Origin: Bacteroidaceae bacterium
GTDB lineage: Bacteria; Bacteroidota; Bacteroidia; Bacteroidales; Bacteroidaceae
Direction: 5' to 3'
Assembly (NCBI GenBank): GCA_017465905.1
Contig: JAFTVE010000008.1
Span: 1 to 64,000, forward strand
Length of the DNA stretch: 64,000 nucleotides
In this document: piece by piece, positions 54,061 through 59,016 of the stretch
How positions within the stretch are numbered: the stretch's first letter is position 1
Layout of the letters: each line of letters begins with the position of its first letter
Translations under genes and position numbers: made by a program
Notes under the pieces: model-generated
Databases searched by the model: none
Told to the model about the DNA's origin: nothing
The model's input: only the letters and a program-made list of their open reading frames with translations

Positions 54061-57000
54061 ATGAAGTCTCGTTTCATATATCTAGTGCTTTGTCTGTGTG
54101 CAGTGTGGCTGATGGGGTGCTCATCGCACGGAGGACATGGTGCATCTACGCACCCGGCTGATGAACTGAACCGCAAGGCGTATACTTGGCGCTATCGCAA
54201 TTTGGACTCTACCGAGTACTATGCTCTGAGTGCGTATCAAGAGGCTGAGTACTATAAACACGGACGCACCATGGCATGCAATATGTTGGGCTTTGTGGCA
54301 TTCATGCGGATGGATTACGACGAAGCGTTGCTTTGGTATGATGAAGTGGATAGGCTCTCGGGGTGTGAACTGGAACGCTTGGTGTCCGATGTGGGGCGTA
54401 TGTATGTATATCTGCGAACGGCAGACAATCTGGCTTTCTACAACAATCGTGTGAAGGCAATGAAGCGTTTGGCTCACATTGAGGAGGAAAGCGAACTGTT
54501 TGCTCCTGTCGAACGAGCTCGACTGCAATCGACGGTGAACGACTTGTATATGATTTCAGCTTTGCATCACTATACGATTGGGCAACGTCCAGAAGCATAT
54601 GCTGAGATGGATAAGGTTCAGGACGATGAGGTGTTGCGCACTGATTCGGCGCAATGGCTCATGGCGCAGTATATGCGTGGTTCGGGCTTTGATGTAGAGG
54701 GTGATACCCGTGAGCAGCGTCTGTTACGCCGATACACTCATCTTAATAATTGTCTGCGTGAAAGTCGTGAGGGTGGGTATGTGTATTTTGTCGGACTTGC
54801 TCTTTCTGGATTGTCCGAGTTGTTGGCCGATTCAACACGTAGTGCCTATTTGGCTCAGTTGCGTCCCAACTCATTTGCACAGCTCACCAAAGGTCTGGAA
54901 GAGGCGGTTTTCTCATTGGTCTCAGAAGCCCAGAAGTGCCTGCAAACTTATGGTGACCGCTACGGCGAAGTGAATGCAAAGGTACAGACTGCCTCCCTTT
55001 ATAATCGAACAGGAGAATATGAAATGGCGCTCGATACTTTGTTGTGTATGTTGGAGGATAGTACCCTCGTGCCTGATGTGCTGTGTCGATTACATGAGGA
55101 AGCCAGTTTGGCCTATGCCGGATTGGGTGATAAGGCTTCGTCGGACCATCATCGAAATATCTATCTTGATTTGTTGGAAATGACTCGTCAAGATAAGGAG
55201 TTGGAGAATCGCTATTGGAAACTGATGCGTCAGCAGCGTAGGATGAATCTGCTCTTATGTGCTGTACTTGGTGGCATCGCTTTCTTTATTTTGCTCGTAG
55301 CATTCATGTCGCGTTACAAGCATCGTAAGGGCAATGGCTATGAACAGCATCTGCGCGACCTCTTGCAGGAAACGGAGAAAAGAGTATATTTACAGCAACG
55401 TCATATAGAAGCAGGTAAACGTGGCAATGTGGTGCGTAAGGCTACCTTCTCTATGGTGACGGGTATGATGCCCTATATCGACCGCATGGCTCGTGAGGTC
55501 GACCGTTTGCAGTACGATTCTGTATGGAATGATGCGGAACTTCGTACGCGTAAACTGGAGTATATAGGCGAGTTGGCCAGTGAAATCAACAGCCTCAATG
55601 AGGTACTCTCTCAATGGATCAAGACCACCCAAGGAGTGGTAAGCCTACATATAGAATCATTTTCCCTATCCGAGGTCTTCGATATGATAGCTCGCAGCAA
55701 TGCCTCCTTTGCATTGAAGGGGGTCACGCTCGATGTGTTGCCTACTGATGCTGTCGTCAAGGCCGATAAAGCACTCACCTTCTTTATGCTCAATACGCTG
55801 GCCGACAACGCCCGCAAGTTCACTTCCGAGGGAGGACGGGTAAGTATCGCTGCTGAGGTGTGTGGTGAGTATGTGGAATTGTCGGTATCTGACACTGGCG
55901 TCGGAATGTCGGCAGAGGATGTTTCTCATATCATGAGCGAGAAGGTGTATGATGTTGCCTCTATAGGTCAGGATATGCCTCTTCAGCGCAAGAATAAGGG
56001 CAGTGGATTCGGACTGCTCAACTGCAAGGGCATCATTGATAAGTATCGGAAGACCGACTCTCTCTTTGAGGTATGTCGTATGGGAATCGACAGTCGAGTG
56101 GGCGAGGGAAGTCGCTTCTGGTTTCGTTTGCCCAAGGGAGTGCGTCGCATGATGACATTACTGTGCTTGATTGCATTTCCTTCTTTGATGTCAGCAAACT
56201 TCCCATCTCCGGATGAGGGTGTCGGTGAGTCCTATTCTCCTCTACTACTGCAGGCTTCAGCTTATGCCGATAGCGTATATTATGCCAATATCGATGGTCG
56301 TTACGAGGCGGCTCTCTCCTTTGCCGATTCTGCTCTTTATTATCTAAATGTCCATCACCGTCGGTATGCCGACCCCTATATAGCTCCACTCACAGCCATA
56401 CGGGGCGAGGAGAGCGATGTGGAGATGCGCTGGTGGCTTAGCGACTTTGCCACCGACTACCACACCATACTTGATGTTCGCAACGAAATGGCTGTGGCCA
56501 ATCTTGCTCTGCGCCGTTGGGAGCATTACCGTTATAATAATCGTATCTACAATGACCTGTATAAACTCATTAGCGAAGACCGTTCGTTGGTAGACTACTG
56601 TAATCGTATGCAGCGTTATAATAGCAATATCTCCGTGGCCGTACTCTTCTGTGTATTGCTTGTGTTGGGTTATCTGACTGTACTGATCTATACCTTCATG
56701 GGGCGTGTAGAACATGTTTACCGTGATATTGAATCTGTTGAGGATGAAGAACGGCGTGCACGTCACGAGGGAAACCGCCTCCACGTACAGAATATGGTGC
56801 TCGATAACTGTCTCTCTACCATTAAGCACGAGACTGTGTATTACCCCAACCGAATCAAGCAGCTGGTGTCACGTCTTGATGCACAGGATGAGCGTCAGCA
56901 GATGAAAGAACTTGTCGACTACTACAGAGTTGTCTTCACAACTTTAGCCAATTGTGCTTCCCGACAGTTGGATGAGGTCACCTTCCGTCGCTCCGAGGTG

Positions 57001-57468
57001 CAGGCTGCAACGTTGCTCCATCGTGCCCAGCAGTATCATGCTAAAGCGATGCGTCAACATTCTGATGCTCCAGCACTCACCATAGATAATTGCGGTGATT
57101 TGTCAGTGTATTGCGATGCCGATTTAGTAGCGTTCCTTCTCGAACAACTGATTGATGCAGCTCTTTCTGCTTCACCTGCAGACAACCTCACTCTCAAGGC
57201 TAGTGCTGATGGCGATTTTGTGCGTTTCTCTCTGATTAATACTTCGCGTATCCTTGCTCCTGAAGCATTGCAGAGTCTCTTTTCTCCCTCTTATATGAGC
57301 AGTATCGAGGGTTCCCGGCTACAAGGAACTGAGTACATAGTGTGCCGTCAGATAATTCGTGAACACGACAGCTACTTCAACCATATCGGTTGTCGCATCA
57401 AAGCTGACTCGGTTCCTAATGGTTATGCCGTATGGTTCACTCTGCCATCACTTTCTTCCTTAAAATAA
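54061..57468 (+). CDS. Double sensor histidine-kinase-like protein (DUF5112/DUF5113 type)
   Basis: From MKSRFIYLVL (lipobox LMGC, Cys20) it has 1135 residues. A first TPR-like periplasmic region (40-390), membrane span 396-416 and cytoplasmic module 420-693 come first. The module's ATPase motifs are N583 (LADNARKF), DTGVGM 611-616 and GSGFGL 647-652. A second signal-like span (696-712), a second sensor (715-850), span 857-879 and a second module follow. The second module has an H-box-like TIKHET (His923) and an ATPase that has lost the DxGxG motif. So module 1 has the ATP site without the histidine and module 2 the histidine without an ATP site. The architecture is what I recall as DUF5112-DUF5113. 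The earlier in-frame ATG (53815) overlaps the methyltransferase and is rejected. Confidence 0.88.
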   Translation: MKSRFIYLVLCLCAVWLMGCSSHGGHGASTHPADELNRKAYTWRYRNLDSTEYYALSAYQEAEYYKHGRTMACNMLGFVAFMRMDYDEALLWYDEVDRLSGCELERLVSDVGRMYVYLRTADNLAFYNNRVKAMKRLAHIEEESELFAPVERARLQSTVNDLYMISALHHYTIGQRPEAYAEMDKVQDDEVLRTDSAQWLMAQYMRGSGFDVEGDTREQRLLRRYTHLNNCLRESREGGYVYFVGLALSGLSELLADSTRSAYLAQLRPNSFAQLTKGLEEAVFSLVSEAQKCLQTYGDRYGEVNAKVQTASLYNRTGEYEMALDTLLCMLEDSTLVPDVLCRLHEEASLAYAGLGDKASSDHHRNIYLDLLEMTRQDKELENRYWKLMRQQRRMNLLLCAVLGGIAFFILLVAFMSRYKHRKGNGYEQHLRDLLQETEKRVYLQQRHIEAGKRGNVVRKATFSMVTGMMPYIDRMAREVDRLQYDSVWNDAELRTRKLEYIGELASEINSLNEVLSQWIKTTQGVVSLHIESFSLSEVFDMIARSNASFALKGVTLDVLPTDAVVKADKALTFFMLNTLADNARKFTSEGGRVSIAAEVCGEYVELSVSDTGVGMSAEDVSHIMSEKVYDVASIGQDMPLQRKNKGSGFGLLNCKGIIDKYRKTDSLFEVCRMGIDSRVGEGSRFWFRLPKGVRRMMTLLCLIAFPSLMSANFPSPDEGVGESYSPLLLQASAYADSVYYANIDGRYEAALSFADSALYYLNVHHRRYADPYIAPLTAIRGEESDVEMRWWLSDFATDYHTILDVRNEMAVANLALRRWEHYRYNNRIYNDLYKLISEDRSLVDYCNRMQRYNSNISVAVLFCVLLVLGYLTVLIYTFMGRVEHVYRDIESVEDEERRARHEGNRLHVQNMVLDNCLSTIKHETVYYPNRIKQLVSRLDAQDERQQMKELVDYYRVVFTTLANCASRQLDEVTFRRSEVQAATLLHRAQQYHAKAMRQHSDAPALTIDNCGDLSVYCDADLVAFLLEQLIDAALSASPADNLTLKASADGDFVRFSLINTSRILAPEALQSLFSPSYMSSIEGSRLQGTEYIVCRQIIREHDSYFNHIGCRIKADSVPNGYAVWFTLPSLSSLK

Positions 57469-57571: not shown

Positions 57572-58285
57572 ATGTATAATGTAATAATTGTAGAAGACAT
57601 AAAACTCGAACTGAAGGGTACCGAAGAGATTTTTCGGAATGAGATACCTGAAGCACAGGTCATCGGTACGGCAATGACGGAGGAGGAGTTTTGGCCACTT
57701 ATGGAAGAACAGTTGCCCGATATGGTCTTGTTGGACCTCGGGTTGGGTGGTTCCACAACTATTGGTGTCACCATTTGCCGCACTATTAAGAAACGTTATC
57801 CTCAGGTGAAGGTTCTGATATTTACGGGTGAGATTCTGAACGAAAAGCTTTGGGTTGATGCTCTTGACGCTGGGGCATGCGGTATTGTGCTTAAAACTGG
57901 AGAGTTGCTCACACGTACCGAGATACAGAGTGTGATGGATGGAAAGCATTTGGTATTTAACCAACCTATACTAGAAAAAATTGTGGAACGTTTTCGTCGG
58001 GCTGTCAATGCTGAATCTATGCGCCAGCGTGCTGCAATTGCTTATGAAATTGATGAATACGATGAGCGATTTTTACGTCACTTGGCATTGGGCTATACCA
58101 AGGATATGATAGCCTCGCTACGTACAATGCCTTTTAGCCCCAAATCGCTGGAACGACGGCAAGCTGACCTCATTGCTCGTTTGTTTCCTGAAGAGGAGCA
58201 GCGTGGAGTTAATGTCACTCGCCTTGTTGTGCGTGCTATCGAACTGCACATCATTGAACCAGACAATCTGGTGGCTGATGATTAA
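57572..58285 (+). CDS. Response regulator with degenerate LuxR-type output
   Basis: The 237-residue REC-HTH protein has acidic Glu8/Asp9, phospho-Asp55 in VLLDLGLGG, Thr in VLIFTGE and the Lys in GIVLKTGEL. The C-terminal half (about 150-235) is a divergent LuxR-like HTH: YDERFLRHLALGYTKDMIA matches the LxxLAxGYxxxEIA helix pattern, but the recognition helix is unusual (PFSPKSLERRQADLI). It is the partner of the double sensor kinase, 103 bases upstream, and likely relays its signal to transcription. Confidence 0.85.
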   Translation: MYNVIIVEDIKLELKGTEEIFRNEIPEAQVIGTAMTEEEFWPLMEEQLPDMVLLDLGLGGSTTIGVTICRTIKKRYPQVKVLIFTGEILNEKLWVDALDAGACGIVLKTGELLTRTEIQSVMDGKHLVFNQPILEKIVERFRRAVNAESMRQRAAIAYEIDEYDERFLRHLALGYTKDMIASLRTMPFSPKSLERRQADLIARLFPEEEQRGVNVTRLVVRAIELHIIEPDNLVADD

Positions 58286-58317: not shown

Positions 58318-59016
58318 TTGTTTACCACTATTTATATATGTCTCTTGTTGGTGCTGGTGTTCGTCTCATGGATTGCCAGTATATACGGACTCATGCTTCC
58401 TAATGGTGCAGTGATGCCCAGTTTGCTTAGTGCAGATAGCATGCGCTGGTTTGTACGGCATAGCATGGAGATTATCGAAGCTGCTCCTCTAGCACAGGTG
58501 CTGCTTATATTATTGATGGTGGGTACTATTCGTAGCTGTGGACTGATACGATATGTCGCGCATCTGATGCGTGAACATAAAGCTTTACCTTTGGTGCATC
58601 GCCAGAAACATGCCACACGCATTGCGTTGCTCGTATTTGGAGTGTTTGTGGCATTAGTGTTGTCGGGTATACTGACTCCTGACGGTAATTTGCTTAGTGT
58701 TACCGGACATATTGCTGGTGGCCCATTCTCACGGGGATGGCTCTTCTTGCTCTGTCTCGTGGTGTGTGTGCCTTGTTTGGTTTATGGCCGTTTGTCGAAC
58801 TTATGGCATACGGAGTATGAGCTGTTAGGATTTCTTACATCGGAGATTGCCCGCTGCTCGGGCTATTTTGTCACGCTTGTTGTGGCAGCCCTTTTTATGG
58901 CGGCTTTACACTATGTAGGATTGTTTGAGTTGCTAGGGTGGAGTGACAGCGTTGTCGCAATATTCTCTATGGTGTTGTATGGACTCCCCTTGGCTGTAAC
59001 TATATACAAGGATTAG
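58318..59016 (+). CDS. AbgT-like membrane protein, short form
   Basis: The 232 residues with about five spans begin at a TTG codon (58318); no ATG before the first span is in frame. The stretch PSLLSADSMRWFVRH, then APLAQVLLILLMVGTIRSCGLI resembles the start of AbgT-family transporters (p-aminobenzoyl-glutamate type), which are about 500 residues. The rest of that family is missing, so it is either a fragment with a new role or a separate family. It follows the response regulator by 32 bases and could be the output or a co-sensor of that system. It is convergent with yggS, with two bases between. Confidence 0.6.
   Translation: MFTTIYICLLLVLVFVSWIASIYGLMLPNGAVMPSLLSADSMRWFVRHSMEIIEAAPLAQVLLILLMVGTIRSCGLIRYVAHLMREHKALPLVHRQKHATRIALLVFGVFVALVLSGILTPDGNLLSVTGHIAGGPFSRGWLFLLCLVVCVPCLVYGRLSNLWHTEYELLGFLTSEIARCSGYFVTLVVAALFMAALHYVGLFELLGWSDSVVAIFSMVLYGLPLAVTIYKD

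Follow-up and report, generated by a model that had tools for sequence, protein, structure and literature searches.

A histidine kinase is normally a homodimer, with an ATP site and the histidine in each of its chains. What kind of sensor is then encoded by a gene whose single open reading frame (ORF) holds two kinase units, one with the ATP motifs and the other with the histidine? Such a gene is found in a stretch of 64,000 nucleotides from a Bacteroidaceae bacterium (assembly GCA_017465905.1, contig JAFTVE010000008.1, positions 1 to 64,000; hereafter the window), where an ORF of 1135 amino acids (aa) occupies 54061..57468 of the plus strand. The original prediction, made from the DNA letters, read this gene as a sensor kinase built by internal duplication, in which unit 1 uses ATP and phosphorylates His923 of unit 2 within one chain. 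It placed N583, DTGVGM (611-616) and GSGFGL (647-652) in unit 1 and TIKHET with His923 in unit 2, and all of them are present at these residues, in a frame of the predicted position and length. Comparison with homologues indicates that the observation is right and that the predicted conservation holds, and the proposed mechanism is well supported by sequence. Our overall reading, which we hold to be rather probable, is an obligate heterodimeric sensor kinase made from one gene, whose two copies divide the labour and which is probably cut at the joint between them.

Two kinase units with complementary motifs

The homologue set started from the window and 81 other loci (82), to which 37 were added; the resulting 119 ORFs come from 118 genomes and represent 25 numbered genera. 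The second batch consisted of 40 loci, and three were excluded: L201 with no kinase on the contig piece, L202 with a contig-cut frame of 458 aa, and L210, a single-unit relative. The 119 ORFs include four that touch locus ends (L026, L027, L032, and L121) and two (L129 and L130) that come from one genome, G391. In all 119, the window's gene included, the two-unit kinase forms one open frame, cut by contig ends in four of the homologues, and the opposite strand across the gene holds only short frames of at most 184 aa among the listed frames of at least 90 aa.

The original prediction of two sensor-kinase units in one ORF is borne out by a profile-profile comparison of whole unit 1 with whole unit 2 (82 homologues), which gave a probability of 99.8 and an E-value of 1.4e-30; the kinase halves alone matched at E 3.4e-17 and the sensor parts alone at E 3.6e-18. 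In the Pfam scan of the whole protein, DUF5112 at residues 33-295 (203.8 bits) and DUF5113 at 725-874 (209.6 bits) are both above cut-off, HATPase_c is best at 576-692 (E 3.2e-23) with a second stretch, and no receiver domain was found. DUF5113 has a further match in unit 1, and in genomes G258 and G165 both copies reach at least 171 bits. Judged from these comparisons, the internal duplication of a sensor-kinase unit is real. Hydropathy suggests a topology with the N-terminus outside, a transmembrane helix, cytoplasmic DHp1 and catalytic ATP-binding domain (CA1), the joint, a periplasmic DUF5113, a second transmembrane helix, and cytoplasmic DHp2-CA2, and each unit would thereby have a normal sensor-kinase layout. 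The earlier view that both kinase halves would be cytoplasmic fits this hydropathy pattern.

The motifs retained by the two units are complementary. In unit 1 the residues N583, D611, G613, G615, G649, and G651 are each found in 119 of 119 ORFs, and the same is true of K922, H923, E924, and P929 in unit 2. The N, G1, and G2 ATP motifs occur only in unit 1 and the histidine followed by an acidic residue (KHE) only in unit 2, in all 119 cases, and no ORF combines histidine and ATP motifs within one kinase unit, L027 ending before the CA domain of unit 2. At the unit 1 position aligned with His923 in the profile comparison the window has Thr467, and H[DE] is absent from unit 1 residues 455-476 throughout the 119 ORFs. 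From residue 940 on, regular expressions for the ATP-motif set (N box, DxGxG, GxGxG, GFG/GLG) found no such set in any assessable ORF, and nine ORFs have one isolated short match each. Conservation follows the proposed roles of the halves, being high in CA1 (mean pairwise identity 0.595) and in the H box of unit 2 (0.788, within a DHp2 of 0.498), 0.436 in DHp1, and low in CA2 (0.338). The invariance of the named catalytic residues is, on this alignment, far above chance, and the complementary losses that the homologues were expected to keep are kept across the family, with its 25 genera sampled here.

By its profile score unit 2 has an ATPase-type domain, although the motifs of that domain are missing. 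Its kinase end alone scores 28.9 bits against HATPase_c (cut-off 26.4, E 1.6e-06), and the unit 1 end scores 60.1 bits. A structural model of residues 885-1135 from six sequences (predicted local distance difference test, pLDDT, 63.1; predicted template-modelling score, pTM, 0.57) gave 314 structure matches at E <=0.001, among them DHp-CA histidine kinases in the PDB such as CusS, HK853, DivL, and ZraS (best E 1.6e-09), with template-modelling scores by query length of 0.41-0.58 among the best 50 of the 314. Of 295 genomes of the order, 265 contain a match to the unit 2 profile at E <=0.001, the four sampled members of the family among them, and the best out-of-family matches examined (L155-L160) are histidine kinases with ATP motifs. 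Residue 927, in the motif HExxY, is Tyr in 113 ORFs, Phe in three, Trp in two, and Ser in one, and is never Asn or Thr. In the HE/DxxN/T motif, the N/T is tied to phosphatase activity (PMC3591291), and thus the kinase is predicted to be without that phosphatase mechanism.

The joint between the units

Between the last CA1 strand (RLP) and unit 2 the chain passes through a basic stretch, a short hydrophobic core, and small residues, and in the window this core lies under the transmembrane hydropathy threshold of 1.6. Every scored genome of the genera g2 and g3 (36 of 36) has at the joint a Cys preceded by Ser, Gly, or Ala, with variable flanks; of the 37 genomes 35 were scored by pattern and L071 by eye, and G661 (L053) is cut before the joint. 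The -3 residue of the tabulated Cys sites is Leu in 16 of 35 and Gly in 10 of 35. The remaining 82 of the 119 ORFs are without a joint Cys; 23 of them have x-x-[AGS]|Q with a permitted residue at -3, where 8.2 are expected from shuffling (0 of 1000 shuffles reached 23). At the other two membrane helices the same pattern is found in 1/82 and 0/82.

For background, 249 internal in-to-out segments and 111 N-terminal segments were taken from the fetched loci, and the scanner found 87 of the 119 joints. The lipobox is present in 24/87 joints versus 10/249 internal segments (Fisher p 8e-9) and [AGS]|Q in 20/87 versus 11/249 (p 2e-6), p values that are overstated because the tests treat homologues as independent. 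Both joint rates are close to those of the N-terminal segments (18/111 and 27/111, respectively). The [AGS]|Q pattern is of the kind described by the Bacteroidetes Q-rule for signal peptidase I (PMC5837995). The AxA cleavage rule was dropped as evidence, since it does not discriminate joints (51/87) from background (148/249). An internal translation start at unit 2 was also judged unlikely: the window has Met697/698, and many homologues, inspected by eye, have no Met there.

By these features the joint looks like an internal signal peptide, which is new in this analysis, and with this make-up the mature form is probably two chains. It seems likely to us that the precursor is cut at this position. 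The original description of a kinase in a single chain thus holds for the open frame and is doubtful for the mature form.

Regulator, distribution, and ancestry

The next gene encodes a response regulator with Asp55, as was predicted. Among 114 aligned regulators D55 is present in 113, the other having a gap, and T85 and K108 are present in all. In 74 of 82 loci the regulator lies 3' of the kinase and in the same orientation, as it does in L103, where the ORF caller merged the frames. The other seven loci have no regulator in the flank. For six of them a genome search found it on another contig at 84-93% identity (L144-L148 and L150; genomes G295, G301, G302, G304, G307, and G298). These six are some of the members of the window's genus, and in G295, G301, and G302 the roughly 6 kb of flank examined contained no regulator. 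The genome search of the seventh, G311, gave no regulator match. When two full listings for 399 family genomes were compared by eye, kinase and DUF5932 regulator were both present in 310, the kinase only in three, the regulator only in one, which carries a contig-cut kinase end, and neither in 85. Genome G391 has two full kinase-regulator copies, and the genera g190, g194, g195, g197, and g208 of the family have members without kinase and regulator, among the rows listed. The source draft genome (2.84 Mb, 79.7% completeness) gives one match to the kinase protein. Six public relatives are draft genomes assigned to Bacteroidaceae or Bacteroidales, and four of these come from rectum or colon samples of sheep, deer, cattle, or buffalo.

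Outside the family, the best match to the unit 2 profile is a single-unit frame of 718 residues found in two genomes (G286 and G101) of one other family of the order. A search of 295 order genomes with this kinase gave no further comparable match, the next best (E 3.1e-22) covering the kinase end only. The single-unit kinase has a lipoprotein-type start, the H box CLSIFRHDMSPYI, an N box, DTGCGIP, and GFGLM, and overlaps at its end a regulator frame with DUF5932 at 25.6 bits (cut-off 23.7) and a receiver match below cut-off (20.6 versus 30.2 bits); kinase and regulator together lie at L210:5757-8719. A tree of 64 kinase ends, with 12 ordinary kinases as the root, groups units 1 and 2 in a clade (support 100) and places the single-unit kinase as sister to that clade (support 96). 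By mean identity the single-unit kinase is nearer to ordinary kinases (0.292) than to either unit (0.253 for unit 1, 0.205 for unit 2), so that its placement rests on the tree and on the adjoining regulator. The L210 kinase is a possible living relative of the ancestor, and the likely path would lead from an intact kinase through tandem duplication with fusion to a division of labour before the family spread. Matches to DUF5113 were searched in the 295 genomes of the order and found in 10. In six of these the matches were weak and outside the family (L012-L017), and were read as TPR or unrelated proteins; one of the six, in G120, is above cut-off once its pieces are summed.

The features of the locus are collected in Table 1. 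The C-terminus of the regulator (57953-58282, plus strand), which is DUF5932, resembles by eye a helix-turn-helix of the NarL/LuxR type, and no such Pfam domain was found there at E up to 1. Downstream, at 58318-59016 on the same strand, an ORF of 232 aa with a TTG start matches the AbgT transporter family PF03806 (E 1.1e-12) and is far shorter than the family model, its best stretch covering profile positions 247-360 of 502.

Table 1. Coordinates in the window of the two-unit kinase gene, its parts, and the adjoining regulator.
Feature	Position	Strand	Evidence
Two-unit kinase gene, 1135 aa	54061..57468	+	ORF
N-terminal lipoprotein-type signal, residues 1-20 ending C20 (LMGC)	54061..54120	+	Cys at C20 column 110/119; hydrophobic segment 5-23
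DUF5112, residues 33-295, periplasmic by hydropathy-based topology	54157..54945	+	Pfam E 4.3e-60
DUF5113-like sensor, unit 1	54889..55299	+	PF17140 E 3.4e-17
Transmembrane helix, unit 1, residues 397-415	55249..55305	+	Hydropathy
DHp-like helices, unit 1, without H-box His, residues about 448-545	55402..55695	+	Profile/alignment comparison
Catalytic ATP-binding domain (CA1), unit 1, residues 560-692	55738..56136	+	HATPase_c; ATP motifs 119/119
Internal signal-peptide-like joint, residues 692-712 (KGVRR, hydrophobic core, LMSA|N)	56134..56196	+	Family evidence
DUF5113 sensor, unit 2, residues 725-874	56233..56682	+	Pfam E 3.4e-62
Transmembrane helix, unit 2, residues 857-875	56629..56685	+	Hydropathy
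DHp, unit 2, residues 903-985, His923 in KHET (codon 56827-56829)	56767..57015	+	K922, H923, E924, P929 119/119
Degenerate CA domain (CA2), unit 2, residues 1012-1128	57094..57444	+	HATPase_c just above cut-off, motif set missing; fold model; least conserved kinase block
Response regulator: receiver (D55 codon 57734-57736) and DUF5932	57572..58285	+	Next gene; Pfam; alignment

Working model and rival explanations

In the model that we favour, a single-unit kinase gene would have been duplicated in tandem and fused, and the copies would then have split the work. Unit 1 (DUF5112/DUF5113 sensor, transmembrane helix, DHp without histidine, intact ATP domain) would be the catalytic half, and unit 2 (DUF5113 sensor, transmembrane helix, DHp with His923, dead ATP domain) the phospho-acceptor half. 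The joint would retain the apparent signal peptide of unit 2, at which signal peptidase I, or II where the lipobox-like Cys is kept, would probably cut the precursor into two membrane subunits. These subunits may pair through their DHp helices, a DHp1-DHp2 four-helix pairing being the simplest working unit; CA1 of unit 1 would phosphorylate His923 of unit 2, from which D55 of the DUF5932 regulator would receive the phosphate. The ATP-using and phospho-acceptor halves, the two sensor inputs, and the output to the adjoining regulator were already part of the original prediction and find support in the alignments, and we consider the division of labour between the units highly probable. More evenly balanced is the specific proposal of a polyprotein sensor kinase, in which either signal peptidase cuts at the internal signal peptide to release interdependent catalytic and phospho-acceptor subunits.

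Several observations, besides the overstated p values, weigh against this model or parts of it. At the joint, Gly at -3 (10/35) is not a usual lipobox residue, the window's own site (LMSA|N) has Met at -3 and fails the strict cleavage rule, as do 10 others of the 119, and the [AGS]|Q share of 23/82 is under the >60% reported for signal peptidase I substrates of P. gingivalis (PMC5837995). Nucleotide binding by unit 2 is improbable by its motifs, yet its HATPase_c score is above cut-off. An AlphaFold model of residues 420-1135 from seven sequences was poor (pLDDT 52.5, pTM 0.32) and no heterodimer was seen in it. In mean-field coupling of the 119 sequences (effective number, Neff, 107) DHp1-DHp2 reached 0.55-0.69 of expectation, which is no enrichment; CA1-DHp2 reached 1.4-1.6 and CA1 with the unit 2 sensor 1.4-1.7, with no usable inter-unit contact signal. 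The unit 1 clade of the tree is weakly supported (44) and the branches are long. Finally, column 467 of unit 1 is a lone His in 10 of 119 ORFs, with Asp or Glu never next to it.

The same division of labour would also be obtained if the joint were an uncut transmembrane helix, so that one chain with three transmembrane helices forms an intramolecular heterodimer, as in the original prediction. The single open frame of the aligned ORFs and the poor -3 residue of the window's joint suit this explanation, and AxA is frequent by chance in helices of the internal in-to-out kind (148/249); we nonetheless regard it as rather unlikely, given that an uncut helix offers no evident reason to retain the joint Cys in 36/36 genomes with variable flanks and the excess of [AGS]|Q. 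It is improbable that unit 2 is instead a phosphotransferase served by another kinase, with unit 1 acting elsewhere or being regulatory. Its DHp and CA without ATP motifs do have the layout of Spo0B and ChpT, but both units lie in one ORF with complementary motifs, the kinase protein has no receiver domain that could be found, and an intact single-unit kinase with the same type of regulator exists. Least credible of all is signalling through an unconventional residue of unit 1, such as the lone His of some clades, with unit 2 regulatory, for although ten ORFs have that His, column 467 is another residue in 109 of 119, no acidic residue ever follows the His, and the invariance of His923 would be left unexplained. 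The same ten ORFs narrow the original claim that unit 1 is without an H-box histidine, which stands for the window and for H[DE] in all homologues; the homologues that had been named as contrary evidence, with a unit 1 histidine or a unit 2 ATPase, are thus found in this weak form and not in the strong one.

Known systems share parts of the favoured heterodimer model. Spo0B and ChpT phosphotransferases consist of a DHp and a CA-like domain that does not use ATP and are fed by receiver domains, whereas here the catalytic twin would be in the same ORF. The Bradyrhizobium fbcH cytochrome b/c1 precursor is likewise a bacterial precursor, for which cleavage at an internal signal peptide is assumed, and differs in not being a signalling protein; our literature search turned up no paper on it. 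The parts of CheA are soluble. His923 lies in the same ORF and in a predicted DHp-CA fold, unlike the CheA-type P1 histidine on a separate gene. Nearest in logic is FasB/FasC/FasA of group A Streptococcus, where one partner is a proposed pseudokinase whose own kinase domain is dispensable and whose His246 would be phosphorylated by the kinase of the other, with output to one response regulator (PMC12675982). That system differs in having two genes and chains from the start, six putative transmembrane domains in each, and no fused one-ORF duplication, and FasB has two candidate histidines of its own at which phosphorylation is not ruled out (PMC12675982). In the studied split kinase of Rhodobacter sphaeroides the ATP-using and His-bearing parts are also on different proteins, CheA3 and CheA4, with a P1 His domain, two genes, and no duplicated membrane sensor (PMC3591291). 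As far as these partial sources go, neither the Fas nor the CheA pair is one ORF made by duplication. A literature search on the three domain names found no paper, and one on heterodimeric, tandem, or internally cut kinases found no matching one-ORF system, most subscription papers lying outside both searches.

With the two activities on different halves in 119 of 119 ORFs, the direction of phosphorylation would be fixed and cleanly assayable. The probable cleavage into two chains proposed here changes the picture of a single-chain kinase, and if the joint is cut the gene would encode a bacterial signalling polyprotein. If the polyprotein reading is true, the two subunits would be made in a fixed 1:1 ratio, and most of the sampled family genomes would carry a two-input switch that lacks the usual phosphatase motif. 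Since 310 of 399 family genomes have retained both kinase and regulator, the signal that they carry probably matters in this gut family.

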